This document shows, in pieces, positions 43,479 through 60,811 of a stretch of 64,000 nucleotides of DNA (the first letter of the stretch is position 1; the number at the start of each line of letters is the position of its first letter). The stretch is from positions 62,001 to 126,000 of the forward strand of contig NZ_JAUYSS010000047.1 in the NCBI RefSeq assembly GCF_030695525.1, in the 5' to 3' direction. A program made the position numbers and the translations under genes. The DNA comes from Daejeonella sp. (GTDB lineage Bacteria > Bacteroidota > Bacteroidia > Sphingobacteriales > Sphingobacteriaceae). The notes beneath the pieces are model-generated. The model was not told the DNA's origin. It did not search any database and saw only the letters and a list, made by a program, of their open reading frames with translations.

Positions 43479-43540
43479 TTTTTGTTACTATAATTTTAGT
43501 GGAGTGGGATTATGTAGGTTTCTTTATTAAATCAATTTAG

Positions 43541-43939
43541 ATGAAATATGAAGAGCTTACTCATGAAATCATTGCCTGCTCGATGAAAGTCCACGGAGTT
43601 CTTGGGAATGGTTTTCAGGAGGTTATTTATCAGCGGGCATTAGCCATTGAATTAGAAAGATCAGGTCTGCGTTATAAACAAGAAATGGTCATGGACATCT
43701 ATTATGAAGGAATAAAGCTTGGGACAAGGAGAGTTGATTTTTTTGTAGAGGAGCTTATTATGCTGGAACTGAAAGCCCTGATTAGAATGGAAGATGTGCA
43801 CCTTGCGCAGGCGATGAATTATTGTCAGGCCTATAATTTGCCTATTGGATTATTGATAAATTTTGGCGCAAAAAGACTTGAATTTAAGCGGGTGTATAAT
43901 CTTAATCATGCGGATAATAAAAATTACCAGAAGAATTAG
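43541..43939 (+). CDS. GxxExxY family protein (PD-(D/E)XK-fold)
   Basis: A 132-residue protein of the GxxExxY family. The name motif is GFQEVIY at 24-30. The nuclease-fold signature is D66 in RRVDFFV followed by E76 and K78 in MLELKAL, matching PD-(D/E)XK enzymes. Family members are widespread in Bacteroidota; their biological role is not established as far as I know. The gene lies between two GGATT-type repeat arrays of the same orientation, and its TAG stop is part of the first unit of the downstream array. A nucleic-acid-processing function is possible. Confidence 0.88.
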   Translation: MKYEELTHEIIACSMKVHGVLGNGFQEVIYQRALAIELERSGLRYKQEMVMDIYYEGIKLGTRRVDFFVEELIMLELKALIRMEDVHLAQAMNYCQAYNLPIGLLINFGAKRLEFKRVYNLNHADNKNYQKN

Positions 43940-44182
43940 GATTATAGGATTGAAGGATTAAAAAGTGGGGTAGGATTAATAGGATTGGAGGATGATAGGA
44001 TTAAAAAAGTAGTAGGATTAATAGGATTAAAGGATGATAGGATTAATAAAGTGATGCGATTAATAAGATTATAGGATTAAAGAAAATGGTTCTTAATCTC
44101 CAATCCTATAATCCTTTACTCCTAATCCCCAATCCTTTAATCCTATCATCCTATTAATCCTAATTAATCTTAATTAATCCTA
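43936..44182. repeat. Large GGATT array with inverted partner, downstream flank of GxxExxY gene
   Basis: Direct units (AGGATTAA, AGGATGAT, AGGATTGA types) run 43936-44084. Their reverse complements (AATCCT types) run 44097-44182 and continue into the last codons and stop of leuB on the minus strand. Confidence 0.85.
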
Positions 44183-45231
44183 CTACTTAGATAGTCTCCA
44201 ACTTCAGAAGTCTTATACGCTTTATTTTTACCCGCAATATCCTCAGTTACTATTCCTTCTTCGAGTGATTTATTTACAACCGCCCTAATCAGTTCAGCCT
44301 CTTCCTTTAATCCGAATGCATCTTCGAACATCATTGCAGCAGAAAGAACAGTCGCCAAAGGATTGGCAATATCTTTTCCTGCAGCCTGTGGGTAGGAGCC
44401 ATGTATAGGCTCAAATAAGGAGGTGTGTAAGCCTATCGATGCGGATGGCATTAATCCCATAGATCCTGAAATAACTGATGCCTCATCCGTTAGAATGTCT
44501 CCGAAAAGATTTTCGGTAATCATCACATCATAGGAACTTGGCCATTGAACCAGGCGCATTGCTACAGCATCTACGAATTCATAACTTACAGTAACTTCAG
44601 GATAATCTTTTTCCATGTCCTGAACAGTCTCGCGCCATAGACGTGAACTTTCTAAAACGTTTGCTTTATCTACACAGCATAATTTCTTTGAGCGCTTCAT
44701 CGCCATTTCAAAGCCTAATTTCGCCAGACGGATGATCTCATCACGGGTATAGGTACAGGTATCAAACGCAGTGTTACCATTGTCTTTTCTGCCACGCTCG
44801 CCAAAATAAATTCCACCTGTTAACTCACGAAGAATGATCAGATCTGTACCTTCAATACGTTCTCTCTTTAGAGGTGAATTGTCAATTAATGAAGGAAAGG
44901 TAAATGTTGGTCGAACGTTTGCGAACAAACCCAGTTTTTTACGCATTTTCAATAAGCCCTGCTCCGGACGGACTGGGGCTTTCGGATCATTATCATATTT
45001 CGGATCACCAATTGCACCAAACAGAATCGCATCAGCAGCCATACATACCTCATGGGTTGAATCAGGGTAAGGTTCACCCACTGCATCAATAGCACATGCA
45101 CCTGTTAATGCAGATGTCCAGTTGATCTCATGATTGAATTTCTTTGCAATGGCATTACATACTTTTACAGCCTGATCAATTACTTCAGGTCCAATTCCAT
45201 CTCCGGCTAAAAGGGCGATATTTAATTTCAT
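44170..45231 (-). CDS. leuB: 3-isopropylmalate dehydrogenase
   Basis: Oxidatively decarboxylates 3-isopropylmalate to 2-oxoisocaproate in leucine synthesis; the same enzyme can act on 3-methylmalate in the citramalate route. The 353-residue protein has GDGIGPEV, the substrate Arg/Lys sites in LRELTGGIYFGERG and DKANVLESSRLW, the metal Asp cluster in ENLFGDILTDEASVI, and the NAD site LFEPIHGSYPQAAGKDIANP split by short loops. It is last in the ilv-leu operon. The final residues RIN and the stop are encoded by the inverted GGATT repeat array. Confidence 0.95.
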   Translation of the reverse strand: MKLNIALLAGDGIGPEVIDQAVKVCNAIAKKFNHEINWTSALTGACAIDAVGEPYPDSTHEVCMAADAILFGAIGDPKYDNDPKAPVRPEQGLLKMRKKLGLFANVRPTFTFPSLIDNSPLKRERIEGTDLIILRELTGGIYFGERGRKDNGNTAFDTCTYTRDEIIRLAKLGFEMAMKRSKKLCCVDKANVLESSRLWRETVQDMEKDYPEVTVSYEFVDAVAMRLVQWPSSYDVMITENLFGDILTDEASVISGSMGLMPSASIGLHTSLFEPIHGSYPQAAGKDIANPLATVLSAAMMFEDAFGLKEEAELIRAVVNKSLEEGIVTEDIAGKNKAYKTSEVGDYLSSRIN

Positions 45232-45240
45232 TTTTTTTGA

Positions 45241-45407
45241 GTTATATGTAGTAAGTTATACGTTATACGTTTTAAGTAGTAAGTTATAGGTTATAAGTAG
45301 TAGGTTCTAAGTATGGTAAAAACTTTAAATGATGATAATTATCCTTGTTAATATGAATTTACTAAGAACTAACCACCAACCAACTAACCAACTACATTAA
45401 CCAACTA
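45241..45407. repeat. Heptameric arrays, leuB-cimA gap
   Basis: Ten consecutive 7-mers (GTTATAC, GTAGTAA, GTTATAG types) occupy 45241-45310. Seven 7-mers of ACTAACC/AACTAAC type occupy 45361-45407 and include the TAG stop of the upstream synthase gene. Confidence 0.85.
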
Positions 45408-46922
45408 AATGATATTAAGCATTTTCTGAGTCGCCTTGATCGCACATACGGTCTGGTCTGAATCAAGGCCACGGGTAATGAATTTTTTAGTTGGTGTTTC
45501 CCAGGTAATAATCGTTTCGCACAAAGCATCTGAATTACTTCCCGGTGCAATTCTTACCGCATAATCGATTAATTTAGGAAGACATGCCTTCTTTTTCTCA
45601 TAGACCTTGCCCAATGCTTTCATAAAGGCATCAAATTGTCCATCGCCCTGAGCATTTTCTTCGAATAATTCTCCGTCAAAGCGCACAGAAATCGTCGCCG
45701 AAGGTCTTAATCCTTTGGAATGAGTCAAAACATAAGAATCAACAATCACCTTATCGGTAGTTGAGGGACTGTTCAGAACATCAGAAATGATATATGGAAG
45801 GTCTTCCTTTGTTACCGTTTCTTTCATGTCACCCAGTTCGATAACACGTTGTGTTACCTTTTTTAGATCCTGATCACTCAGTTTCAGACCAAGTTCCTGA
45901 AGATTCTTTTCAATATTTGCCTTGCCGGATGTTTTTCCTAAGGCATAGGTACGCTTTCTCCCAAAACGTTCGGGAAGGAGGTCATTAAAATACAGGTTGT
46001 TTTTACTATCTCCATCGGCATGGATACCGGCAGTTTGTGTGAACACATTATCACCTACGATCGGCTTGTTTGATGGGATTCTGATTCCTGAAAAAGTTTC
46101 TACCAGTTTACTGACAGTATAAATTGCCTCCTCATTGATATTGATCTCAATTTCAGGCATAAAATCATTGATAGCTGCAACCGCACTGGCCATTGAGGCA
46201 TTGCCTGCACGCTCACCCATGCCATTTACTGTAAAATGCAGGCCATCGGCTCCTGCTTTGATGCCCTCGAGAGTATTAGCATTGGCGAGGTCATAATCGT
46301 TATGCGCATGAAAGTCGAAATGAATTTTTGGATACCTGGCTTTGATTTGAGAAATATATTCAAAAGTTTCAGAGGGAGTCAGCACGCCAAGGGTATCAGG
46401 TAGCATAATCCTTTTTACAGGTTGGTCTGAAAGAAAATCAAGATACTGAAAAACATACTCCGGAGAATTGCGCATCCCATTGCTCCAGTCTTCAAGATAA
46501 ACATTACTTGAAATCCCATGTTGTGCAGCCAATTTAAAATTGTCGGCAATTTCCGCAAAGTGCTGTTCCGGAGTTTTTTTCAGCTGATGTTTCAGGTGGT
46601 TTAAAGATCCTTTGGTTAAAAGGTTTTGCACCTTAACACCAGCTTTAGCCATCCATTCAATTGATACTCCATGGTCTACGAATGAAAGCACCTCAATCTG
46701 GCCAGTATGGCCATGGGTGTTTGCCCAATCCATAATGGCCTTAACCGAAGCAAACTCACCTTCCGACACCCGTGCTGATGCCACCTCAACCCGGTCAACC
46801 CTGAGTTCTTCAAGGAGCAGTTGGGTGATGGTAAGTTTTTCCGAAATAGAAAACGACACCCCGGAGGTTTGTTCACCATCGCGGAGTGTTGTATCCATTA
46901 TTTCTATTTTCCTCTTTCCCAT
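45405..46922 (-). CDS. Alpha-isopropylmalate/citramalate synthase-family enzyme, probably citramalate synthase
   Basis: A 505-residue LeuA-superfamily enzyme distinct from the LeuA at 49068. The catalytic barrel (3-270) has [37 protein letters not shown] and the HAHNDYDLANAN metal site. The LeuA_dimer regulatory domain is at about 370-500. Two such enzymes in one operon with LeuC/D/B, and no ilvA in the operon, suggest that this one makes (R)-citramalate from pyruvate and acetyl-CoA for isoleucine synthesis. A second isopropylmalate synthase is the alternative. It ends in a heptamer array and is 15 bp after leuD. Confidence 0.72.
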   Translation of the reverse strand: MGKRKIEIMDTTLRDGEQTSGVSFSISEKLTITQLLLEELRVDRVEVASARVSEGEFASVKAIMDWANTHGHTGQIEVLSFVDHGVSIEWMAKAGVKVQNLLTKGSLNHLKHQLKKTPEQHFAEIADNFKLAAQHGISSNVYLEDWSNGMRNSPEYVFQYLDFLSDQPVKRIMLPDTLGVLTPSETFEYISQIKARYPKIHFDFHAHNDYDLANANTLEGIKAGADGLHFTVNGMGERAGNASMASAVAAINDFMPEIEININEEAIYTVSKLVETFSGIRIPSNKPIVGDNVFTQTAGIHADGDSKNNLYFNDLLPERFGRKRTYALGKTSGKANIEKNLQELGLKLSDQDLKKVTQRVIELGDMKETVTKEDLPYIISDVLNSPSTTDKVIVDSYVLTHSKGLRPSATISVRFDGELFEENAQGDGQFDAFMKALGKVYEKKKACLPKLIDYAVRIAPGSNSDALCETIITWETPTKKFITRGLDSDQTVCAIKATQKMLNII

Positions 46923-46937
46923 TTGTATGTTTTTGTA

Positions 46938-47534
46938 TTATATAGGCAGGTTAGATGCAAATTCTTGTATTTCCGGCTTCATATTTACCAGATAATCAAT
47001 GTCATCAAAGCCATTGAGCATATTGCTTTTTTTGTATGAGCTGATGTCAAAGGATTCCTTTTCTCCCGTAGACAGAATGCTGATCGTTTGCTCCGGCAAG
47101 TTCACTTCAAGTTCTGTTTTCGGATCTGCTTCAATTGCCTGGAATATCTTATCAGCAAACTCAGGGCTAACCTGTACCGGTAAAACCCCAATGTTAAGGC
47201 AGTTGCCTTTGAAAATATCCGCAAAGAAGCTGGATACAACACACCTGAAACCATAATCATAAATTGCCCAGGCAGCATGTTCCCTGGATGAACCGGAACC
47301 AAAGTTCTTTCCTCCAACCAGAATTTTACCACTGTAAAGTGGATTATTGAGTACGAATTCTGATTTCTGACTGTCGTCTGAATTATATCTCCAGTCGCGG
47401 AAAAGGTTATCCCCGAATCCTACGCGCTCTGTTGCTTTTAAAAAGCGGGCAGGGATGATCTGATCAGTATCCACGTTCTCAATTGACAATGGAACTGCAG
47501 AACTTCTTAATATGTTGAATTTATCGTAAGCCAT
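46938..47534 (-). CDS. leuD: 3-isopropylmalate dehydratase small subunit
   Basis: The small subunit of isopropylmalate isomerase, which completes the active site with LeuC. The 198-residue protein has NVDTDQIIPARFLK, the swivelling-domain motif GGKNFGSGSSREHAAWAI and FKGNCLNIGVLPV. The C-terminal helix NGFDDIDYLVNMKPEI resembles the tail of the odd LeuC-like protein at 50651. It is 29 bp downstream of leuC and 15 bp upstream of the citramalate-synthase-like gene. Confidence 0.95.
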   Translation of the reverse strand: MAYDKFNILRSSAVPLSIENVDTDQIIPARFLKATERVGFGDNLFRDWRYNSDDSQKSEFVLNNPLYSGKILVGGKNFGSGSSREHAAWAIYDYGFRCVVSSFFADIFKGNCLNIGVLPVQVSPEFADKIFQAIEADPKTELEVNLPEQTISILSTGEKESFDISSYKKSNMLNGFDDIDYLVNMKPEIQEFASNLPI

Positions 47535-47563
47535 CTTTATGTCTTTATGCGAAATATCGCCTG

Positions 47564-48961
47564 TTATTGAATTAATGTTCTCGGATCAGTTACCACTCCG
47601 GTTACTGCAGCTGCTGCTGCAACCAGCGGGCTTGCCAGCATGGTTCTGGAACCTGGTCCCTGACGTCCTTCAAAGTTCCTGTTCGAGGTACTTACAGCAT
47701 ATTTTCCTGCCGGGATTTTATCATCATTCATCGCCAGACATGCAGAACAACCTGGCTGACGCAGGGTAAATCCAGCTTCAGTGAAAATATCCAGCAATCC
47801 TTCATCCTGAATCTGCTTTTCAACAATATGTGATCCCGGAACTAACCATGCAGTAACATTATCAGCTTTTTTTCTTCCTTTTACAATGGAAGCAAAAGCC
47901 CGGAAATCTTCAATCCTACCGTTAGTACAGCTACCAATGAATACATAATCCACCTGTTTCCCCATCATTGGCTCGCCTTCATTGAAACCCATATAGTTGA
48001 GTGATTTGGCAAATGTAGCAGCTCCGCCTTCAACTTCCCCTGCTTTAGGAATTGAATTCGAAATGCCCATACCCATTCCCGGATTAGTTCCATAGGTGAT
48101 CATCGGTTCAATGGTAGAACCATCAAATGTATATTCCTTGTCAAAAACTGCATCCGCATCTGTTTTCAGGCTCTTGTAATAGGCCAGTGCTCTGTCCCAT
48201 GCTTCGCCTTTCGGACTGAATTCGCGGCCTTTCACGTAGTTAATGGTCGTTTCATCAGGTGCGATCATACCACCTCTGGCACCCATTTCAATGCTCAGAT
48301 TACAAACAGTCATACGGCCTTCCATACTCATATTTTCAAATACTTCACCTGCATATTCTACAAAGTATCCGGTAGCACCCGAGGTACTCAATTGTGATAT
48401 GATAAACAATGCGACGTCTTTTGGTGTTACTCCTTTACCCAGCTCACCATTGATGTTGATTCTCATCTTCATTGGCTTAGGCTGCATAATGCACTGAGTA
48501 GTTAGTACCATCTCTACTTCAGAGGTACCGATACCAAAAGCAATTGCGCCGAAGGCACCATGGGTTGAGGTATGTGAATCACCGCAAACAATAGTTGCTC
48601 CCGGTTGGGTGATCCCGTACTCAGGACCAACCACATGCACAATCCCGTTTTTCTGATGCCCTAAACCCCAGTAACTGATCCCATGTTCTTTTGAATTAGA
48701 TTCAAGTGCTTTCAACTGATTGGCCGAAAGAGGATCTGCAACCGGTAAATGCTGATTGATCGTTGGGGTATTATGATCCGCTGTAGCAAATGTGCGCTCA
48801 GGGTACAGTACTTTAAGCCCTCGGTTTTTGAGACCAAGAAAGGCCACCGGACTCGTAACTTCATGAACCATGTGACGGTCGATAAATAACACATCAGGCC
48901 CACCTTCAATCTTACGAACTACGTGAGAATCCCACACTTTGTCAAACAATGTATTGCTCAT
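47564..48961 (-). CDS. leuC: 3-isopropylmalate dehydratase large subunit
   Basis: An aconitase-family [4Fe-4S] enzyme that isomerises 2- to 3-isopropylmalate, and possibly citramalate. The 465-residue protein has [24 protein letters not shown] divided across the active site, and all three cluster cysteines: [11 protein letters not shown] and [30 protein letters not shown] is near the end. It is normal in length and intact, unlike the paralogue at 50651-51664. It lies in the operon between leuA and leuD. Confidence 0.96.
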
Positions 48962-48975
48962 ATTTTTTTTATTTA

Positions 48976-49070
48976 GTACTCAGTACTTAGTACCCAGTAT
49001 TTAGTATTTAGATATTAACCGATTTAAAACTTATCACTTACAACGTAAAACATACAACTCAAATCTCCTA
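48976..49070. repeat. Heptameric arrays, leuC-leuA gap
   Basis: Six 7-mers (GTACTCA, GTACTTA, GTATTTA types) occupy 48976-49017. Five inverted-type 7-mers (ACTTATC, ACTTACA, ACATACA) occupy 49029-49063 and lead into TCTCCTA, which contains the leuA stop on the minus strand. Confidence 0.82.
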
Positions 49071-50576
49071 AACAAACTTATTCAGTGCATCCAGATAAGC
49101 ATTCGCAGAAGCACGGACAATATCAGTGCTGAATCCGTAGCCTTTATAGGATTTGCCTTCATTTATAACAAGCATATCCACTTTGCTCACATCATCGCTT
49201 CCACTATGTATCGCATGTATATTAAACTCTTTGATGTTGAAGCTTCTTCCGATGATTTTTTCAATTGCTTTGATCGTCGCATCAACCGGTCCGTTTCCTG
49301 CCGCTGTTGCATCATGAACCATGCCTTTGTAAAACAATTTAATCATTGCCTCCGGACTTTCCTGATCGCCACATTTCACCTGCAAACTCTTGATTGAAAG
49401 GCCATCTTTGTAATTTGATTCAGCCCTGTCTCCCATTAGAAGGAGAATATCGTCATCCCTTATTTCTTTTTTGCCATCAGCCATGGTCAGGAATTTATTA
49501 TAAACCTGATCAAGGTCGATCCGGTCTATAGTATATCCCAGGCGCTCAAGATGATGGTTCAGGGCATGTCTTCCACTACGTGCAGTAAGGATGATTTCTG
49601 ACTGATCAATACCTACATCTTCCGGATTGATGATTTCATAAGTTTCACGATGTTTTAACACGCCGTCCTGATGAATACCCGAGCTATGTGCAAATGCATT
49701 CTTTCCAACAATAGCCTTATTAGGCTGAACTGGCATACGCATCATTCGGCTAACCATTCCGCTAAGCTCGTATAAGTGCCTGCTATTTACCTGATGAGTA
49801 AAATTGAGAGTTTTGTGAGTCTTTAGAATCATTACAATTTCTTCCAATGCCGTATTTCCTGCACGCTCTCCGATTCCATTGATTGTGCACTCTACCTGCC
49901 GCGCTCCATTTTGAATACCTGCAATACTGTTTGCAGTGGCCAATCCCAGATCATTGTGGCAATGGACTGAAATGATTGCCTGATCAATGTTTTTAACATT
50001 CTCTTTCAGGAAACGTATTTTTTCACCATACTGCTCAGGCAGGCAATATCCATTAGTATCGGGTATATTTACTACTGTAGCGCCAGCCGAAATAACAGCT
50101 TCGACCATTTGGGCCAGAAATACGTTATCAGCTCTACCAGCATCTTCTGCATAGAATTCAATATCTTCTACAAAGCTTTTGGCATACTTCACAGCATCAA
50201 TGGCACGTTCAAGAACTGCCTCCCTTGTACTGTTGAATTTATATTTAATATGGTTATCTGATGAACCAATTCCTGTATGAATCCTTGGGCGCTTAGCAAA
50301 TTTCAAAGCTTCAGCAGCAGAGTCTATATCCCCTTTATTTGCACGGGTCAGCGCGCAAATTACCGGCTCACGAACAGCCTTCGAGAGTTCGACTACACTT
50401 TGAAAATCACCAGGGCTTGAGATAGGGAAGCCGGCTTCTATGATATCTACCCCAAGTTTTTCGAGGGCCTTGCCTATTTCGATCTTTTCAACAGTAGATA
50501 ACTGACATCCGGGTACCTGTTCTCCATCCCTTAAGGTGGTGTCAAAAATATAGATGCGGTTTGGGTCGTGTAACAT
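49068..50576 (-). CDS. leuA: 2-isopropylmalate synthase
   Basis: The first leucine-specific step: condensation of 2-oxoisovalerate with acetyl-CoA. The 502-residue protein has [30 protein letters not shown], the metal site [26 protein letters not shown] and [12 protein letters not shown]. The C-terminal regulatory LeuA_dimer domain (about 380-500) mediates leucine feedback in this family. It is in the ilv-leu operon between the LeuC-like gene and leuC. Its TAG stop lies in the heptamer array. Confidence 0.95.
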
Positions 50577-50650
50577 ATTTTTTTTCTTTAACAGAGCAAT
50601 TTTGCTCCATTTTTGCCTGAATTCAGCGGCTCTGATCTTAAATATGGGGA

Positions 50651-51664
50651 TTATGCCCCATCGTAAACTTTATATATCGTTTTGCTTTCGAAATTTTCAA
50701 TACTATCCAGATGGTTTAACAGATAATCAGTATCGTTATAACCTGCAATTATTGCTGCACCATCGTGGGTGATCATTTCTGATCTTTGATTTGCCGGTTT
50801 AGACTGGATTAGTCTGGAAAGACCAATACCATAATTCCCCGGAACAATATCTTCGGCATCGAACTCAAGAACCTCGTCAAAAACACAAGCTTCATCAGAA
50901 TACAAACTTTGCCACAATGAAATGATCTCTTCTGCAGCTTCACCATCCGGCATCAATCCACGACTGCTCAGGTATTCAAAAGTAATTTTATCCGGAGCTA
51001 TAAGCCCGCCAATTGCACCAATTTCCCTGCTCATATTACAGATAGCCATCCGGCCTTCTATATCCAGATTAAGGATAGTGTCTCCTGAATATTCAATAAA
51101 ATACCCATTTGCCTCTGCTGCAGATATTTCTGATAACAGGAAATGATTTATATTCTTTGGTCCAAGTCCTTTAGCCAATTTTCCATTCACTTCTACCTTC
51201 ATCCGCTTTGGCTTGTTTATCAGCAAGCATTGTGTTGCTAATACTTGTTCTACCAATAATTCACTAATACTGATAGATAATACCCCAAAAGCACCCAAAT
51301 CACCTGTATGATTCTGATCAAACACCATGGTCTGTCCCGGAAATGCATACAAAGTGTTGGCCTGATCAACAAGATGTTGTTCAAAGTTTTCCAATCCGAA
51401 ATCGCCGCAATTCCTGTTGAAGAGGTCAAGCTGAAAACGCGACAGGTCTGAAGCGGGCAGATGCTGGCTATAAGCCGGATCTTTCTGAACCAGTGTTTGT
51501 GCGGGTCTCAAAACTGCGATATTGCGTCTTCGTAAACCTTCAAAAGCCCTGGCACTCGTCACCTTATTAATGAGATGAGCATCAATGTATAAGGTGTCCG
51601 GAAAGCCTGCATTTCTGCTGACAACATGTTTATTCCAGATCTTATCAAACAGGGTTTGTGCCAT
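50651..51664 (-). CDS. Degenerate LeuC-like protein with LeuD-like tail
   Basis: A 337-residue paralogue of LeuC. It starts like LeuC ([14 protein letters not shown] against [14 protein letters not shown]) and keeps [23 protein letters not shown]. The active-site [10 protein letters not shown] is changed to [10 protein letters not shown]. It stops matching near residue 300, before all three Fe-S cysteines, and then ends in [21 protein letters not shown], which resembles the LeuD C-terminal helix. It cannot be a normal isomerase. A structural or regulatory partner of LeuC/LeuD, or a repurposed fold, is possible. The frame is intact and the gene sits inside the operon, so it is probably expressed. 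Confidence 0.78.
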
Positions 51665-51667
51665 TTA

Positions 51668-51780
51668 GTTGTAGGTTATAAGTTGTAAGTTTTAAGTTTA
51701 TGCCCAACGGCTTTTAACCTAAAACTTACAACCTAGTACTTATAACTTATTACTTAATACTTATAACTTAATACTTATTA
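51668..51780. repeat. Heptameric array with inverted partner, gap between LeuC-like gene and ilvC
   Basis: Five direct 7-mers (GTTGTAG, GTTATAA, GTTTTAA types) occupy 51668-51702. Nine inverted 7-mers (AACCTAA, AACTTAC, TACTTAT types) occupy 51716-51778 and run into the ilvC stop. The direct part ends three bases before the next start codon. Confidence 0.87.
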
Positions 51781-52833
51781 TTTCTCAGGTTGATTCTCAG
51801 GGCGTAAACTTCTTACTGCCTGTCCTGCCTGCCAGATCTCACTGTCATGAAGTGTTTTAAGTTCTGCTTCAAGTTTTACACGGTAATCCGGTTGGCTGTT
51901 CAATTTAATTGTACGTTCAGCTTCTTTTCCCGATGCTACACTCTCATATAATTCATCAAATACAGGCTGGGTAGCATCACGGAAACGTCCTTTCCAGTCT
52001 AATGCACCGCGTTGTGCTGTGGTTGAGCAATTCGCATACATCCAGTCCATACCATTTTCTGCTACCAGTGGCATCAGACTTTGAGTAAGTTCTTCAACTG
52101 TTTCGTTGAATGCTTCAGAAGGAGAGTGTCCATTTCTGCGAAGGGTATTGTATTGTGCTTCGAAGATACCTGCGATTGCACCCATCAGTGTTCCACGCTC
52201 ACCAGTTAAGTCAGAGTAAACTTCTTTACGGAAATCAGTTTCGAACAAATATCCTGATCCAACACCAATTCCTAATGCAATTGCACGTGTTCTGCCTTTT
52301 CCTGTTGCATCCTGATGGATCGCGAAAGATGAATTCAAACCTTTTCCTGCTAAAAACATGCGGCGTAATGATGTACCTGATCCTTTTGGAGCAACCAGAA
52401 TCACATCTACATCAGCAGGAGGGATAATACCTGTTTGCTCTTTGTAAGTGATACCAAATCCATGAGAAAAATAAAGCGCTTTCCCGGGAGTAAGGTATTT
52501 TTTGATGGTTGGCCAAAGTGCGATTTGTCCGGCATCTGATAACAGATATTGAATAATTGTACCTTTTTCAGCAGCTTCTTCAATTTCAAACAGAGTTTCA
52601 CCCGGAACCCATCCGTCAGCAATAGCTTTATCCCAGGTTTTTGAATCTTTTCTCTGTCCGATAATCACTCTGATGCCATTGTCGCGCAGGTTTAATGCTT
52701 GTCCGGGACCCTGAACACCATAACCGATAATTGCTACAGTTTCATCCTTCAGAACTTCACGAGCTTTGTCTAGGGGGAATTCTTCGCGGGTTACTACCTC
52801 TTCTGTAACTCCACCGAAATTGATCTTTGCCAT
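51778..52833 (-). CDS. ilvC: Ketol-acid reductoisomerase
   Basis: Converts acetolactate/acetohydroxybutyrate to dihydroxy acids with NADPH and Mg. The 351-residue protein has the Rossmann motif AIIGYGVQGPGQA, the cofactor loop GQRKDSKTW, the FSHGFGI block and the metal-binding helices DLTGERGTLMGAIAG and FNETVEELTQSLMPL. It has the single-knotted (class I-like) C-terminal domain. It lies between ilvN and the LeuC-like gene in the operon. Confidence 0.95.
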   Translation of the reverse strand: MAKINFGGVTEEVVTREEFPLDKAREVLKDETVAIIGYGVQGPGQALNLRDNGIRVIIGQRKDSKTWDKAIADGWVPGETLFEIEEAAEKGTIIQYLLSDAGQIALWPTIKKYLTPGKALYFSHGFGITYKEQTGIIPPADVDVILVAPKGSGTSLRRMFLAGKGLNSSFAIHQDATGKGRTRAIALGIGVGSGYLFETDFRKEVYSDLTGERGTLMGAIAGIFEAQYNTLRRNGHSPSEAFNETVEELTQSLMPLVAENGMDWMYANCSTTAQRGALDWKGRFRDATQPVFDELYESVASGKEAERTIKLNSQPDYRVKLEAELKTLHDSEIWQAGQAVRSLRPENQPEK

Positions 52834-52900
52834 ATTGTTTTTGATTTTACTTTTTGTTTTTTATTTAATGATTTTGATTAATAATGGTCTCTTTATTGAC

Positions 52901-53551
52901 TTACATAGTGAATATCCGCTGCCCTTTATTCAGGTATTCATTTTCAACTACCTCCTCGCCAGGTTCTGCTTTTTCAAATTCGCGGAGCTTGCGGTTAAAG
53001 CCATCACTGTTTTTGATAATGGCTACGCGTGCACTTCGTACAAACTCAATGAGTCCGAATGGTTGCAGAATTTTGATCAAAGCATCAGTTTCTTCGCGGT
53101 GGCCTGTAGTTTCAAATACCGTATAATCCTTGCGTATCACAACTGCTCTGGCGCCATTTTCACGGAGTAAACGCTCCACACTTGCTTTTTCTGCAATAAT
53201 ATCTGTAGGTACCTTATATAGAGCCATTTCCTGCCAGATAATATCCTCGTTTGTATTGAAATACACTTTCAGAACCTCAACCTGCTTTTCAATTTGCCTT
53301 GAAAGTTTTCTAACGACATCCTCGGTTTCATGAACTACAATATTAAAGCGGTGAATACTCTCAATCTCAGATGGCGAGGTATTCAGGCTATGAATATTTA
53401 TTTTGCGACGTGTGAAGATAATCGCAATCCGGTTAAGGAGGCCAATCTGGTTCTCAGTATAAACAGTAATGGTGAATTCCTGTTTAGCCTCACCCCGGCC
53501 CTCTCCTGAGGAGAGGGAGGCTGGTGCGCTATTAATTTTATTTGAATCCAT
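52901..53551 (-). CDS. ilvN: Acetolactate synthase small (regulatory) subunit
   Basis: The regulatory subunit that gives valine feedback to IlvB. The 216-residue protein has an ACT domain (about 24-95) with FTITVYTENQIGLLNRIAII-type start and RKINIHSLNTSPSE, then the second ALS_ss domain. Residues 8-21 (SAPASLSSGEGRGE) are not part of the family and are encoded by a GC-rich palindromic repeat (53486-53526) inserted in frame near the start. It is 43 bp downstream of ilvB. Confidence 0.93.
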   Translation of the reverse strand: MDSNKINSAPASLSSGEGRGEAKQEFTITVYTENQIGLLNRIAIIFTRRKINIHSLNTSPSEIESIHRFNIVVHETEDVVRKLSRQIEKQVEVLKVYFNTNEDIIWQEMALYKVPTDIIAEKASVERLLRENGARAVVIRKDYTVFETTGHREETDALIKILQPFGLIEFVRSARVAIIKNSDGFNRKLREFEKAEPGEEVVENEYLNKGQRIFTM

Positions 53552-53592
53552 ATGATTTTCTTTAGCCTCCCCTTTGGGGAGGTTGTGGGGCT
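53486..53592. repeat. Pair of GC-rich palindromic repeats, one inside ilvN
   Basis: Copy 1 (53486-53526) has CCCTCTCCT/AGGAGAGGG arms and AGCCTC/GAGGCT flanks, and is translated in ilvN. Copy 2 (53564-53592) has CCTCCCC-TTT-GGGGAGG and lies in the ilvB-ilvN gap, next to the ilvB stop. Confidence 0.75.
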
Positions 53593-53594
53593 TA

Positions 53595-55331
53595 TTATTT
53601 CAATCTGATCTCACTCACACTGCATCCTTGCGGCACCATCGGGAATACATTATTCTCCTTGGTAACCATCACTTCAAGCAGGAAAGAACCTTTGTGTTCA
53701 AGCATTTCTTTTAATGAAGAGGAAATCTCCCCACGCTCTGAAATACTCTTTCCTTTAATTCTGTAGGCAGCAGCAAGTGCCACAAAATCAGGGCTTTCTA
53801 TGTCGACGAAGGAATAACGATGCTGATTAAAAAGTTCCTGCCATTGTCTTACCATTCCCAGGAATTTATTATTCAGAATCAGGATCTTCACATCGATATC
53901 ACTTTGCATAATGGTGCCTAATTCCTGAAGGGTCATCTGAAAGCCCCCATCACCGATTACAGCAACAACTGTTCGCTCCGGTGCACCAAATTTGGCACCA
54001 ATGGCAGCCGGTAAGGCAAATCCCATAGTTCCAAGTCCGCCGCTGGTTACATTACTTCTTGTTTTGTTCAGTTTGGCGTATCGGCAGGCTACCATCTGGT
54101 GTTGACCTACATCGGTAACGATGATCGCCTCGCCATGAGTTAATTCATTTAATTGACTGATCACTTCACCCATGGTCAGTTCACCTGAAGCCGGATGCAG
54201 TTCATCATTGATTACAGCTTCGATCTCTTTCTGCTCGAAATCCCTGAATTTCTGAAGCCATTCAGGATAGGTTTTCTGCTGAATTCGTTTGGTTAATGCA
54301 GGTAAGGTCTCTTTGCAATCGCCCCAAACAGGAACCGTAGTTTGAACGTTTTTGTCAATTTCTGAAGGGTCGATATCCAGATGGATGATTTTCGCCTGTT
54401 TAGCATACTTGTCGAGCCGGCCGGTTACACGGTCATCGAATCTCATTCCAATGGCGATCATTACATCGCATTCATTGGTAAGAACGTTAGGTCCGTAATT
54501 TCCATGCATCCCCAACATTCCCACATTCAGGGGATGATCTGTTGGGATAGCTCCGGCTCCCAGAATGGTCCATGCTGATGGAATTCCGCTCTTTTCAACG
54601 AAAGCTTTGAATTCCAATTCAGCCTCACCCAGAATTACTCCCTGCCCCCACAATACAAAAGGCTTTTTAGCCTGATTGATCAGGGCTGCGGCCTTATCTA
54701 TATATTCATTGCGGACAAGCGGCTTTGGACGGTAACTCCGGATATGATTGCAGGGGGTATAACCGCTGTAATCAAATTTCTGTATCTGGGCATTTTTTGT
54801 GATATCGATTAACACCGGACCGGGTCTTCCACTTCTCGCGATGTAGAAAGCCTTGCTGAGCACTTCCGGAATTTCTGTAGCATCAGTGATCTGATAATTC
54901 CATTTTGTGACAGGAGTTGTGATATTGATCACATCTGTCTCCTGAAATGCATCAGTGCCCAGAAGATGTGCGAACACCTGTCCGGTAATACAAACAAGAG
55001 GAGTGCTGTCGATCATCGCATCAGCTAATCCGGTGACCAGGTTGGTAGCACCGGGGCCGCTGGTTGCAAATACCACACCTACCTTACCCGAAGTTCTGGC
55101 AAAACCTTGTCCGGCGTGAATCCCGCCCTGCTCATGCCTTACCAGAATATGGTTTAATTTTTCCTTGTAGTCGTACAATGCATCATAGATCGGCATAATT
55201 GCCCCGCCAGGGTATCCGAAGATAACTTCGGTGCCTTCGGCGATCAATGCTTCGAGAAGGGCTACAGAACCCGAAATGTCAATCGTTTCAACTCCTGTAG
55301 GGTTACTCAATGCTTGCTGCTCAATTTCCAT
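53595..55331 (-). CDS. ilvB: Acetolactate synthase large (catalytic) subunit
   Basis: A ThDP enzyme that condenses pyruvate with pyruvate or 2-oxobutyrate. The 578-residue protein has GYPGGAIMPIYDAL, the catalytic Glu in LVRHEQGGIHAGQG, the GPGATNLVTGLADA block, and the ThDP-binding GDGGFQM with the matching NNKFLGMVRQW. It forms the holoenzyme with IlvN, encoded 43 bp downstream. Confidence 0.95.
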   Translation of the reverse strand: MEIEQQALSNPTGVETIDISGSVALLEALIAEGTEVIFGYPGGAIMPIYDALYDYKEKLNHILVRHEQGGIHAGQGFARTSGKVGVVFATSGPGATNLVTGLADAMIDSTPLVCITGQVFAHLLGTDAFQETDVINITTPVTKWNYQITDATEIPEVLSKAFYIARSGRPGPVLIDITKNAQIQKFDYSGYTPCNHIRSYRPKPLVRNEYIDKAAALINQAKKPFVLWGQGVILGEAELEFKAFVEKSGIPSAWTILGAGAIPTDHPLNVGMLGMHGNYGPNVLTNECDVMIAIGMRFDDRVTGRLDKYAKQAKIIHLDIDPSEIDKNVQTTVPVWGDCKETLPALTKRIQQKTYPEWLQKFRDFEQKEIEAVINDELHPASGELTMGEVISQLNELTHGEAIIVTDVGQHQMVACRYAKLNKTRSNVTSGGLGTMGFALPAAIGAKFGAPERTVVAVIGDGGFQMTLQELGTIMQSDIDVKILILNNKFLGMVRQWQELFNQHRYSFVDIESPDFVALAAAYRIKGKSISERGEISSSLKEMLEHKGSFLLEVMVTKENNVFPMVPQGCSVSEIRLK

Positions 55332-55356
55332 AATTATTTATTTATATGTTTGTATC

Positions 55357-55388
55357 ATTGATAAGATGAATTGATTCATCTTATCAAT
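55357..55388. repeat. Perfect 15-bp-arm palindrome between ilvD and ilvB
   Basis: The left arm ATTGATAAGATGAAT and its exact complement are separated by only TG, so in RNA they form a near-loopless long hairpin within the operon transcript. There is no T-run. It is probably an RNA-stability or processing element rather than a terminator. Confidence 0.7.
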
Positions 55389-55391
55389 TCA

Positions 55392-57071
55392 TTATTCTTC
55401 GTCAGTAACGCAGCCTTCGCTGGCGTTCTTTACCTGTTTAAAATATTTAAATAACACTCCATTCTTAACAGGAGGTGCCGGCTGCTGCCAGAGTTTTCTT
55501 CTGTGTTCCATTTCTTCGGCTGTGATCATCACATCGATGGAGTTTTTGTTTGCGTCGATCTGAATGATATCATCATCCTTCACCAGACCAATATTTCCGC
55601 CTTCAAAAGCTTCCGGGGTAATATGTCCAACCACAAAACCATGAGTTCCTCCTGAGAAACGGCCATCTGTGATAAGCGCAACTGAAGCACCCAGGCCGGC
55701 TCCAAAGATGGCTGATGTTGGCTTAAGCATTTCCGGCATGCCTGGGGCACCTTTAGGTCCGACATTCCTGATTACGACCACATCCCCTGCTTTTACTTTA
55801 CCGCTACTGATGCCATGGATCAATTCAAATTCTCCGTCAAATACACGCGCCGGACCAGTGAATGACTCGCCTTCTTTTCCGCTGATTTTTGCTACAGAGC
55901 CCTGAGGTGCAAGGTTGCCGTAAAGCATTTGTAAATGCCCTGTTTTCTTAATCGGATTTTCGTAAGGATAGATCACATCCTGATTTTCAAAATTAAGATC
56001 TGCGGCTTCGGCTACATTTTCTGCCAGAGTTTTTCCTGTAACAGTCATGCAATCACCATGGAGTAATCCTTTTTGTAACAGATATTTTAAAACTGATGGT
56101 AATCCGCCAATTGCATGAACGTCTTCCATCATGTATTTTCCGCTAGGTTTTAAATCGGCAATAACTGAAGTCTCATCACTAATCTTCTGGAAATATTCAA
56201 GATCAAGTTTGATTCCAACCGATTTAGCCATTGCAATCAAATGCAGAACTGCATTGGTTGAACCACCCAAAACCATTACCGTTACTATGGCATTATGAAA
56301 TGCCTTTTCTGTCATGATATCCCTTGGTTTGATATCTTTTTCCAGCAATATCCTGATGTATTTACCTGCATCAAGGCATTCCTGTTTCTTTTCTTCACTT
56401 AATGCAAGGTAGGTTGAGCTGTAAGGCAAACTCATTCCCATCGCCTCAATTGCAGAAGCCATCGTATTTGCAGTATACATACCTCCACAGGCACCTGCAC
56501 CCGGACATGCGTGTTCTATAACTCCCTGAAAATCCTCTTCTGCAAGGTTCCCTGCCATTTTCTGACCTAATGCCTCAAATGCAGAAACAATATTCAGCGA
56601 TTGTCCTTTATAATTTCCGGAATGGATACTTCCACCATAAACCATGATTGCCGGTCTGTTCAAGCGGCCCATCGCCATGATAGCTCCCGGCATATTCTTA
56701 TCACATCCCGGTAATGCAATAAGTCCGTCGTAATAATGTCCGCCGCAGACAGTTTCAATAGAGTCGGCGATCAAATCTCTCGAAACAAGAGAGTAGCGCA
56801 TTCCTTCTGTACCATTTGTTATACCATCACTGATACCAATGGTATGAAACATCAAACCCACAAGATTATTATTCCAGACACCTTTCTTGACTACTGCGGC
56901 AAGTTCGTTCAGGTGCATATTGCAGGTATTGCCATCATAGCCCATACTTACAATGCCTACCTGTGCCTTGGCCAGATCTTCTCTGGTCAATCCAATTCCG
57001 TACAACATGGCTTGGGAGGCTGGTTGTGTTGGATCCTGCGTGATTGTTTTGCTGTATTTATTAAGTTCCAT
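55392..57071 (-). CDS. ilvD: Dihydroxy-acid dehydratase
   Basis: An Fe-S dehydratase of valine/isoleucine synthesis. The 559-residue protein has [29 protein letters not shown] and [16 protein letters not shown] with the cluster cysteines, then [12 protein letters not shown] and the C-terminal [16 protein letters not shown]. It is the first structural gene of the operon. A leader peptide and terminator lie upstream (57183-57320 and 57123-57152). Confidence 0.96.
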
Positions 57072-57122
57072 TGTTCAGATTCTTGTATCTTAATTTTTAT
57101 TTTTTTTGACTATATTTTTTCT

Positions 57123-57152
57123 AAAAAAAAAGCCTTTCTGTTAAAGGAAGGC
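57123..57152 (-). terminator. Attenuator terminator of the ilv-leu operon
   Basis: On the minus strand GCCTT...AAGGC (or the alternative CCTTT...AAAGG) is followed by nine Ts, 30 nt after the leader peptide stop and 51 bp before ilvD. Two mutually exclusive pairings of the stem are possible. Confidence 0.72.
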
Positions 57153-57182
57153 GCTGGTCTTTTTATTTGATTTTAAAAGATT

Positions 57183-57320
57183 TTACACCTTAACAGCAGG
57201 GACGAGCAGAATATAATTCAGAATATAAATGAGGGAAAGGATACCCGGAATAGTCAGTTTATTAAAATTAAGATTCAAAGCACCATTCATTATACAAACG
57301 TTTATAATTTCCTGTTTCAT
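57183..57320 (-). CDS. Ile/Leu/Val-rich leader peptide of the ilv-leu operon
   Basis: A short 45-codon frame starting at ATG 57320 (or the internal ATG at 57290) and ending at TAA 57183-57185. Its second half is dense in the operon's end products: in the last 22 residues about 13 are Ile, Leu or Val, including LIYILNYILLV. It is followed at 30 nt by a terminator hairpin with a U-tract and then ilvD. This is the layout of transcription attenuation, in which ribosome stalling at branched-chain codons prevents termination. No homology claim is made; the reading is from composition and position. The rest of the 57072-57629 gap is AT-rich and probably holds the promoter. Confidence 0.75.
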   Translation of the reverse strand: MKQEIINVCIMNGALNLNFNKLTIPGILSLIYILNYILLVPAVKV

Positions 57321-57582
57321 TTAAATCTCAATTTAAGGTCTTAGGATTTAAGTATCAATAGACAATGCATTTTTTTTAAATTAGAATAAAATATTATTAT
57401 TGTTAATATATCAATATTAAATTCCGATTTATTTAAAAATAGCTTTAATAAATTTTGTGTAAATATACCAAAACGGTTTTGGGTTTTCGGTTCATGAAAA
57501 TTTTATTCAGATCAAACTGTCTGATTTCTGCCTGAAATCCGGCAAGAGCCGAAAAAAAATCAAAATTGTGTGTATAAAAAAA

Positions 57583-57609
57583 GCCCCTCGATCTGTTGAT
57601 CAGAGGGGC
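57583..57609. terminator. Terminator downstream of atpC
   Basis: GCCCCTC (57583-57589) pairs with GAGGGGC (57603-57609), with a nested GATC pairing. A-rich and T-rich tracts on either side make it usable on both strands, mainly for atpD-atpC. Confidence 0.85.
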
Positions 57610-57629
57610 CTTCTTTTTTAATTTGACGC

Positions 57630-57878
57630 TCAGGAATTCTGTGTTCCTTCGGCAAGTACCATGATATTATTATCCAGTACTTCAATGACACCGCCTTTGA
57701 TAAAAATAGTTTCTTCATCCTTATCAGTACGGATGATCACTTTGCCATCTTCCAGAGTTGAAATTACAGGTGCGTGATCTTTAAGTACTTCGAAAGAACC
57801 CATGGTACCTGGTACGGTCACAGACCTTACTTCGCCTTCAAAGACTTTTTTATCAGGGGTTAATATTTCTAATTTCAT
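57630..57878 (-). CDS. atpC: ATP synthase F1 subunit epsilon
   Basis: An 82-residue epsilon subunit consisting only of the N-terminal beta-sandwich: LEILTPDKKVFEGEVRSVTVPG, then GSFEVLKDHAPVISTLEDGKV and IFIKGGVIEVLDNNIMVLAE. It lacks the C-terminal helical hairpin of E. coli epsilon, as usual in Bacteroidota, so helix-based autoinhibition is not expected. It is downstream of atpD on the same strand, separated by a 65-bp gap filled with heptamer repeats. The other F1 and Fo genes are not in the window. Confidence 0.93.
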   Translation of the reverse strand: MKLEILTPDKKVFEGEVRSVTVPGTMGSFEVLKDHAPVISTLEDGKVIIRTDKDEETIFIKGGVIEVLDNNIMVLAEGTQNS

Positions 57879-57883
57879 AGGTT

Positions 57884-57941
57884 GAGTATTGAGTATTGAG
57901 TATTGAGTATTGAGTATCTCAATACTAATATCTCTGTACTA
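57884..57941. repeat. Heptameric array, atpC-atpD gap
   Basis: Five near-perfect 7-mers of GAGTATT occupy 57884-57918, followed by inverted types (TCAATAC, TAATATC) to 57941, two bases from the atpD stop. The array fills essentially the whole intergenic space. Confidence 0.88.
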
Positions 57942-57943
57942 AT

Positions 57944-59464
<1,521 letters not shown>

Positions 59465-59571
59465 TTATTAAATCAACAATTTTAGCCCGTTTAAGGGGCA
59501 TTTTTTGGTCTGCAAAAATACTCTTTATCCCCGTAAATCAAATACTTAATTGAAGTTTTTTTATTTTATTT

Positions 59572-59844
59572 AGTATTGAGTATTTAGTATGGAGTATTGA
59601 GAATCAAGAATCAAGAATCAAGAGCCAGGAACCAGGACAGGAACGAGGCTAAAGCTAACCGTCATCCCGATCCTGGAGGGATCTCAAACTTATTAAAACG
59701 AACCCTAAATTAATTATTATCTGTTTAGGACTTAAATTCAAAAGATCCCTTCTGCGTCGGGATGACATTCAAAATGGCGGAAATTCTCCACCCGATAGCA
59801 TTGTCAACTGTCAATTCTCCACTCTCAACTTTTAATTCTCCACT
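59572..59844. repeat. Heptameric arrays flanking a palindrome, upstream of the rmlD-like gene
   Basis: Direct 7-mers (AGTATTG, AGTATTT, AGAATCA and others; nine units) occupy 59572-59634. Six inverted-type 7-mers (GTCAACT, CTCCACT, CTCAACT) occupy 59803-59844. The separate palindrome at 59661-59766 lies between them, so the 444-bp gap is largely repeat. Confidence 0.82.
59661..59766. repeat. GTCATCCCGA palindromic element
   Basis: Outer arms GTCATCCCGA (59661-59670) and TCGGGATGAC (59757-59766) are perfect. After a 6-nt mismatch, inner arms AGGGATCT and AGATCCCT also pair. At 106 bp with nested arms it resembles a small miniature element or dispersed repeat. Confidence 0.7.
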
Positions 59845-59893
59845 GCTTTACATTTTATTCCTTTCTTAAAGAAAATACTGTTTTATTTGGACA

Positions 59894-60811
59894 ATGAAAA
59901 GAATTCTTGTAACAGGCAGTAATGGACTCTTGGGTCAGAAATTGACTGACCTTTGTGTTTCTGATCCTGAAGTTGAACTAATTGCAAGTTCAAAGGGTCC
60001 TAACCGGCATCCGGTTAAGAATGGATACATCTATGAGGATATGGATATACTGGATCCTAAACAAATTCAGAGGGTCGTAGAAAAATATCATCCTGATACC
60101 ATTATTAATACCGCAGCAATGACCAATGTGGATGCCTGTGAAAGTGATAAGGAAAATTGCTATGCTTTGAATGTGGAAACAGTAAAAAGTTTGATCGGAA
60201 TTTGTGAGCAACATAAGATTCAATTAATACATCTTTCTACCGATTTTATCTTCGATGGTGAAAACGGTCCGTATACTGAAGAAGATCATCCCAATCCACT
60301 GAGTTATTATGGGCAAACGAAACTCGAAGCAGAGCAGCTTTTGCAGAAATCAACCTGCAGATGGGTTATTTTGCGAACCATCATTGTTTATGGTATCGTA
60401 AATGACATGAGCCGGAGCAATATTATTCTTTGGGCAAAAGGAGCACTCGAAAAGGGCAGCCCTATAAATGTGGTAGATGATCAATGGCGAATGCCAACTC
60501 TCGCAGAGGATCTGGCAGAATGCTGCCTGCTTGCTGCTAAGAAAAATGCTGAGGGCATTTTTAATGCCTCAGGAAAGGACATGCTGAGTATATTGGAAAT
60601 GGTTAAAATGGTGGCAGACTACTGGAAGCTGGATCAATCCCTGATCAATCCAATTTCTGCCGACAGTTTAAATCAGACTGCCAATCGCCCTAAAAAAACG
60701 GGCTTTATTTTGGATAAGGCTAAAAGGGTGCTGGGCTACAATCCCCGATCTTTTGAAGAGGGAATTGCCTTCGTGGATACCCAGATAAAAGCGATTTCTA
60801 AGTCTAAATAG
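59894..60811 (+). CDS. RmlD-like NAD(P)-dependent epimerase/reductase
   Basis: A 305-residue extended SDR of the RmlD substrate-binding family. It has the GxxGxxG motif TGSNGLLGQ at 7-15, INTAAMTNVDACE (NTAAxTxVDxCE is an RmlD hallmark), LSTDFIFDG and the catalytic YYGQTKLEAE with YxxxK. dTDP-4-dehydrorhamnose reductase is the best-known member, but no other rhamnose genes (rmlA, B, C) are nearby, so the exact sugar-nucleotide substrate is uncertain. Confidence 0.82.
   Translation: MKRILVTGSNGLLGQKLTDLCVSDPEVELIASSKGPNRHPVKNGYIYEDMDILDPKQIQRVVEKYHPDTIINTAAMTNVDACESDKENCYALNVETVKSLIGICEQHKIQLIHLSTDFIFDGENGPYTEEDHPNPLSYYGQTKLEAEQLLQKSTCRWVILRTIIVYGIVNDMSRSNIILWAKGALEKGSPINVVDDQWRMPTLAEDLAECCLLAAKKNAEGIFNASGKDMLSILEMVKMVADYWKLDQSLINPISADSLNQTANRPKKTGFILDKAKRVLGYNPRSFEEGIAFVDTQIKAISKSK

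Follow-up and report, generated by a model that had tools for sequence, protein, structure and literature searches.

A gene joining LeuC- and LeuD-derived parts is kept under purifying selection in the leucine operon of one Daejeonella clade

The window, a 64,000-nucleotide stretch of a Daejeonella sp. contig (NZ_JAUYSS010000047.1, positions 62,001 to 126,000; assembly GCF_030695525.1), carries a branched-chain amino acid operon with the gene order ilvD-ilvB-ilvN-ilvC-X-leuA-leuC-leuD-cimA-leuB (Table 1). X is the gene studied here, and its version in the window is called X337. The X337 frame starts with ATG and has no internal stop. The ilv genes were named from sequence and context, and on the same grounds we take the upstream neighbour of X to be ilvC and the last gene of the operon to be leuB. 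leuA is the first gene of a complete set, termed A-type below. As the initial annotation had described, X337 is intact and lies in the leu operon with a normal leuC and leuD, both of which score above the cut-offs of their TIGR models. The spacer between ilvC and X337 (window 51670-51775) contains short A+T-rich repeats; an exact search found two copies each of ACTTATAACTTA and CTTAATACTTA in this spacer and none elsewhere in the window. No Rfam match to a structured RNA was found at gathering scores in window positions 43500-60000.

Table 1. Position of X337, its parts and the neighbouring genes in the window.
Feature	Position	Strand	Evidence and remarks
X337, whole fusion gene	50651..51664	(-)	337 aa, intact ORF
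LeuC-derived part, residues 1 to ~286	50807..51664	(-)	BLAST, PF00330, structure match, tree grouping with B-type LeuC
Degenerate form of the LeuC GDSHT-region motif in X337	51293..51322	(-)	Alignments with LeuC
Fusion junction, residues ~287-292	50789..50806	(-)	LeuC match end and LeuD match start; pLDDT <50 at 279-306
LeuD-derived tail, residues 293-329, includes GYNDTDYLL	50678..50788	(-)	LeuD profile; pLDDT blocks
ilvC, upstream neighbour, 113-bp gap to X337	51778..52833	(-)	
leuA, downstream neighbour, 74-bp gap	49068..50576	(-)	TIGR00973 669.6 bits, cut-off 598.7
leuC of the complete A-type set	47564..48961	(-)	TIGR00170 631 bits, cut-off 560.25
leuD of the complete A-type set	46938..47534	(-)	TIGR00171 181 bits, cut-off 116.25
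cimA-like synthase	45405..46922	(-)	Best model NF042433 CimA 682 bits, under its cut-off 950
leuB	44170..45231	(-)	By context

Most of X337 is related to LeuC. Residues 1-275 align with the LeuC of the same operon by BLAST (117/286 identities, 41%, E 1e-77), and the sole Pfam domain match of X337 is to the aconitase domain PF00330, of which it covers positions 1-289 of 463 whereas LeuC covers 1-463. We take this LeuC-derived part to be the first two domains of the aconitase fold. The leuC equivalog model TIGR00170 gives X337 228.8 bits over positions 1-287 of 466, against a cut-off of 560.25, and by this curated full-profile score X337 is not a member of LeuC. The likeness to LeuC had been annotated as extending for about 300 residues; the homology holds, but in the structure match it ends near residue 286. 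The missing part contains C345, C405 and C408 of the operon's LeuC, presumably the ligands of the 4Fe-4S cluster, so the annotated loss of the part with all three cluster cysteines is correct. None of the X337 cysteines (86, 146, 209 and 260) lies at the three LeuC cluster sites.

The ten X proteins were compared with 52 LeuC proteins over the 103 columns that are at least 95% conserved in LeuC, and 34 of these columns are unchanged in all ten. H63, N64, H109, G127, D128, S129, S132, T133 and H134, among others, are changed or deleted in every X protein, as is the GTNPGM stretch at residues 291-296 of LeuC; D62 and H130 are each retained in six of the ten. The residues of the DHN and GDSHT motifs are catalytic in the aconitase family. 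Judged from these alignments, both active-site motifs are degraded in X, and the alignment with LeuC also confirmed the degenerate motif that had been reported in place of a LeuC motif. In the LeuC part, ten positions are invariant across X and rare in LeuC, and eight invariant positions of the tail have no LeuC counterpart, several of them being inherited from LeuD. Because the cluster domain is missing and the DHN and GDSHT motifs are degraded, X337 should be unable to act as an isomerase.

The C-terminal tail comes from LeuD. Tails, defined as the residues after EVLEFDAED, were searched in a set with 1000 shuffled tails using profiles of 11 "B" LeuD proteins, 18 A-type LeuD proteins and LeuC sets of equal sizes. 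The B LeuD profile comprises eight proteins from the B-type operons described below and three from loci L077, L086 and L090, whose LeuC falls nearer the A-type. All ten X tails matched the C-terminus of this profile with E values of 2.7e-7 to 6.2e-5, together spanning positions 152-198, and the X337 tail matched positions 160-196 of 199 (E 2.6e-5). The best E value among the shuffled tails was 0.71, which rules out chance similarity. Every X tail scored higher with B LeuD (18.7-26.3 bits) than with A-type LeuD (9.3-15.8 bits), and hhalign gave 95.7% for B LeuD and 64.5% for A-type LeuD. An origin of the tail from LeuC was rejected, since LeuC profiles scored the tails no better than shuffles and reached at most 4.4% in hhalign. 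The pairwise BLAST match of the X337 tail to the operon's own LeuD is weak (E 0.002), and no match to PF00694, the aconitase C-terminal swivel domain, was found in X337 at E up to 1. The LeuD-like C-terminal helix of the initial annotation, for which a profile comparison had been set beforehand as the refuting test, was thereby recovered in ten of ten tails.

The junction was placed at residues ~287-292 because the LeuC match ends at about residue 286 and because of the position of the GYDDID motif in LeuD, which lies at residues 173-175 in eight B-type proteins. The stretch NYGIGLSR (277-284) was also considered as a piece of the LeuD GSSR loop and rejected: it gave a weak second hhalign match of 0.2-0.3% probability, and the LeuC reading PG-x-GIG-x-S fits better by eye.

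The structure of X337 predicted from the 62-row alignment had a pLDDT of 81.6 and a pTM of 0.82 and leans on the LeuC rows, the model from the ten X rows alone reaching a pLDDT of 29.6. Among the solved structures listed, the best match was the large subunit from M. jannaschii, 4kp2_A (Z 25.2, rmsd 3.1, 273 aligned, model residues 3-286), tied with 4kp1 of the same subunit (Z 24.6, rmsd 3.4, 268 aligned). In the model, X retains the N-terminal domain fold of LeuC. Residues 279-306 are of low confidence (pLDDT <50). In the tail, helices were assigned at 300-316 and 319-328, and the block means of pLDDT (49 for 301-310, 91 for 311-320 and 85 for 321-330) make the prediction confident at 311-330. 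In eight of 16 matches to the aconitase family, the aligned range ends near the C-terminus of the solved chain (for example, model residue 320 with residue 753 in 1b0j), which is suggestive, from the end points of the ranges, of a tail docked where the C-terminus of aconitase lies.

To which leuC-leuD pair X belongs can be read from its relatives. A search of 100 genomes for matches to X337 found in many relatives long-frame LeuC proteins with 47-54% identity to X, above the operon's own LeuC (42%). Two main gene orders and a third one were seen. The A-type order, ilvD-ilvB-ilvN-ilvC-leuA-leuC-leuD-cimA-leuB, is that of the clade loci and of 14 of 20 further loci, these 14 from other genera. 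The B-type order, ilvD-ilvB-ilvN-ilvC-leuC-leuD-leuB-leuA, is found at L068-L074 and L092, some of them with gaps or odd ilv genes (ilvC is cut by the contig end at L068, and a 493-aa protein (28%) takes its place at L072). At L077 and L086, the order is leuA-leuC-leuD-leuB with no ilv genes nearby. Of the 13 clade sequences with a visible ilvC (L055-L066 and the window, broken copies counted), 12 have X between ilvC and leuA, the exception being G001. X fills the site of a B-type leuC-leuD pair inside an A-type operon, and the clade operons showed neither leuB nor leuA of the B-type.

A tree built from the N-terminal parts of 10 X and 52 LeuC proteins (62 sequences; quick search with SH-aLRT, no bootstrap) agreed with the gene order. 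All ten X proteins formed one group (SH-aLRT 100), which joined 17 of the 19 B-type LeuC proteins with a support of 95, while the 19 A-type LeuC proteins grouped together apart from X with a support of 100. Ten of 62 distinct LeuC sequences, all A-type and mostly near copies of kept rows, had been left out of the alignment, and the broken copies of G010 and G011 were left out of both the tree and the omega model. X had initially been annotated as a LeuC paralogue; descent from the neighbouring leuC is ruled out by the tree and the LeuD tail, and tree, tail and gene order place its parents in the leuC-leuD pair of a different leu operon type.

The simplest origin of X is an in-frame deletion of about 1 kb in a B-type pair, which would have fused the 5' part of leuC to the 3' part of leuD; both the deletion and its size are deduced, the latter from gene lengths and the spacing of operon loci. 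Such a deletion would have taken out the 3' third of leuC, cluster domain included, together with the spacer and most of leuD, so that LeuC domains 1-2 run on into the final ~40 residues of LeuD. The fusion probably arose in the ancestor of one Daejeonella clade, with a complete leuA-leuC-leuD-cimA-leuB set directly downstream.

The distribution of X was followed in 20 genomes of the genus. The A-type set is present in 14 of them, the window counted, and X is intact in ten of these 14 (G000, G002, G003, G004, G007, G008, G009, G017, G018 and G019), X337 being 60-87% identical to the other nine. Named carriers of an orthologue are Daejeonella lutea DSM 22385 and metagenome-assembled genomes, two of which bear the title Daejeonella sp. 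In G016, the contig starts just before leuA and the X site is unreadable. X is lost or broken in three of the 13 readable clade members: the G010 copy has a frameshift near residue 174, the G011 copy (L065:8441-8758) has an internal deletion that leaves 105 aa with frame and tail kept, and in G001 X is absent, with no detectable relic in the 177-bp gap between ilvC and leuA. In a tree of ilvD and ilvC, which omitted G006 and G016, where these two genes are missing or truncated, G001, G010 and G011 are nested inside the X clade. Because of this nesting and because the lesions differ, three separate losses are the simplest reading, and X is dispensable in some lineages.

B-type operons were found in four genomes of the genus (G006, G012, G013 and G015). 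G012, G013 and G015, although labelled as the same genus, are placed with the outgroups and not within the X clade in the ilvD and ilvC tree; the label of the genus therefore covers more than the X clade. In the genus search, G005 and G014 (68% complete) gave no LeuC match beyond aconitase. G005 is 99% complete and has no CimA match either, and for these reasons it may be a leucine auxotroph. Another genome, G026 from a different genus, has two leu clusters; a frameshift divides its leuC at L089:9523-10928 into two ORFs, of 182 and 286 aa, whose ends share four bases, and its A-type leuC at L088 is intact.

Beyond the genus, 399 genomes of the family, drawn from a larger group, were searched, with matches listed down to E 1e-85. 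Ten matches at 593-665 bits were all in the genus; among the matches listed, the next one was at 375.9 bits, and the next-best matches were LeuC frames of at least 466 residues. The same fusion was not seen beyond the genus among the matches listed for these 399 genomes, a search that divergent or broken copies may escape. Relics of X in other genera were looked for in 45 frames of 15 ilvC-leuA gaps (14 A-type loci of other genera and G001), which gave no significant match (best E 0.053). Within the genomes searched, X thus appears in one clade only. At seven of the 14 loci of other genera, the upstream gene encodes a 493-aa protein with ~28% identity to IlvC. Such a protein, ~28% identical to the 351-aa IlvC of the window, stands at the ilvC place in L072, L076, L078, L079, L081, L082, L087 and L091 and is perhaps a long form of the IlvC enzyme.

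The intact copies of X are under purifying selection. For the ten intact genes, a one-ratio codon model fitted by maximum likelihood gave an omega of 0.110, and the log likelihood was -6856 versus -7400 when omega was set to 1 (the best value over four settings of kappa), a difference of 544 units that rejects neutrality. Omega was 0.018 for leuC, 0.028 for leuD, 0.017 for leuA and 0.012 for ilvC. The value for X is 4-9 times that of the neighbouring genes, so the constraint is moderate. Close sets matter here because synonymous sites are near saturation across the whole clade. In five close genomes, omega of X was 0.120, and five close pairs gave 0.065-0.234 at dS 0.21-0.61; in a sixth pair, G003-G018, dS was saturated and gave no value. 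Along the protein, omega was lowest at residues 136-200 (0.047) and 253-290 (0.043) and higher at 201-252 (0.153) and 291-337 (0.126). Inside the protein, the intact copies differ by short gaps of 1-2 residues, which are in frame by construction because they were taken from the protein alignment. The selection check proposed in the initial annotation came out as constraint, and neutral evolution was not borne out.

Over 104 codons, the internally deleted G011 copy and its intact sister G007 show 17 nonsynonymous and 5 synonymous differences (dN/dS 0.90), while leuC of the same pair gave 0.007. These counts differ from the whole-gene counts of the five intact pairs with uncorrected Fisher p values of 4e-6 to 0.028. 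Polarisation with G017 gave nonsynonymous to synonymous changes of 11:4 for the branch of G011 and 5:1 for that of G007, with one unassigned. On these small counts, the deleted copy looks near neutral, and the intact G007 copy may be relaxing too, because of the 5:1 on its own branch. The G011 copy serves as a natural control for the test of selection. In the frameshifted G010 copy, the two parts that can be read gave dN/dS of 0.12-0.27 against intact relatives, on small numbers, so the frameshift may have arisen recently or may reflect an assembly error.

Taken together, a leuC-leuD fusion origin and constraint on X are, in our judgement, quite probable. From its sequence, X would be a catalytically dead protein under moderate constraint, and the pseudoenzyme claim of the initial annotation stands as far as the intact frame, the missing cluster domain, the degraded DHN and GDSHT motifs and the purifying selection reach. 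Since intact copies are kept in ten relatives despite the lost catalytic parts, X probably has a new non-enzymatic job. The LeuD tail, which in the normal enzyme is part of the partner subunit, may dock in cis onto the LeuC half and stabilise the truncated half. X would then persist as a non-catalytic binding subunit of a branched-chain enzyme, either the isomerase LeuC/LeuD or the dehydrogenase LeuB, perhaps making contact through the slowly evolving stretches 136-200 and 253-290. Binding of a leu-pathway enzyme by X is plausible, but this role is the least certain step of the explanation and is offered tentatively. With similar reserve, one may picture a new protein family that began when one deletion fused two enzyme subunits, the dead subunit then being recruited in one genus to control or organise branched-chain amino acid synthesis.

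X might instead be a slowly decaying relic without function, translated by inertia in an active operon and looking constrained because the losses are recent. Decay of this kind would fit the separate loss or breakage of X in three of 13 readable genomes, the omega 4-9 times that of the neighbours, the near-neutral G011 copy and the possible relaxation of G007, and the lost or broken copies also argue against an essential role. A relic is nevertheless unlikely, as neutrality is rejected by 544 log-likelihood units, omega is low also in close pairs with unsaturated dS, ten frames are open across the clade, and some positions are invariant in X and not in LeuC. As for the partner, the retained LeuC-like fold and LeuD tail, and the presence of leuC and leuD downstream in all ten genomes with intact X, would suit a subunit with an accessory role, regulating or stabilising the A-type LeuC-LeuD isomerase; 14 loci of other genera manage with the same gene set and no X, and this role seems doubtful on the sequences compared, though worth entertaining. 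According to a 2022 review, the structure of the M. tuberculosis LeuCD complex was at that time still to be solved (PMC9780415), which limits mapping of the interface. Another source assigns substrate preference to a loop of the small subunit (PMC7308503), and that loop belongs to the part missing from X.

By analogy with plants, X could tether another enzyme of the pathway, with LeuB as first candidate, in place of an earlier LeuC contact. It keeps part of the LeuC body, and in Arabidopsis complexes of LeuC with isopropylmalate dehydrogenase (IPMDH) are reported from two-hybrid, co-immunoprecipitation and BiFC experiments (PMC7876033). The supporting data come from plants, however, and the leuB of this operon is part of the A-type set and not to the parental operon of X, which makes a LeuB tether rather improbable. 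A role in the citramalate branch, which the initial annotation had also suggested, would draw on the cimA-like gene in the same operon. It is disfavoured, and we give it very little credence, because the 14 cimA-bearing loci of other genera have no significant X match between ilvC and leuA (best E 0.053), and the four B-type members of the genus give only 28-29% matches to the CimA-like protein.

Among known systems, X shares with LeuC (TIGR00170; PF00330) the N-terminal fold and 34 of 103 near-invariant columns, but differs by its missing cluster domain and cysteines, its degraded DHN and GDSHT motifs and its score of less than the cut-off. With LeuD (TIGR00171; PF00694), it has in common the last ~40 residues with a GYDDID-type motif and the following helix, whereas the domain that precedes this tail is absent. 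Aconitases with a fused small domain (1b0j; IRP1, 2b3x) resemble X in the N-terminal fold and in an aligned range that reaches the C-terminal end of the chain, but they have 753-888 residues, and X, with 337, has no cluster domain and only a minor part of the small domain. Pseudoenzymes generally combine a recognisable enzyme fold, lost catalytic residues and purifying selection. X has these three features, but unlike pseudoenzymes in general it would have arisen by a deletion fusion across two subunit genes. No isopropylmalate isomerase pseudoenzyme, and nothing on X, was found in the literature searched (isomerase structures, leu pseudoenzymes, Daejeonella leucine genes and comparable fusions), in which subscription journals were thinly covered.

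X is a case of single origin that allows comparison of the full-length parents, the junction region and both intact and broken descendants. Should a function be shown, X would document the passage from an operon remnant to a new non-catalytic protein within one genus, and it would provide a dead relative of isopropylmalate isomerase to study.
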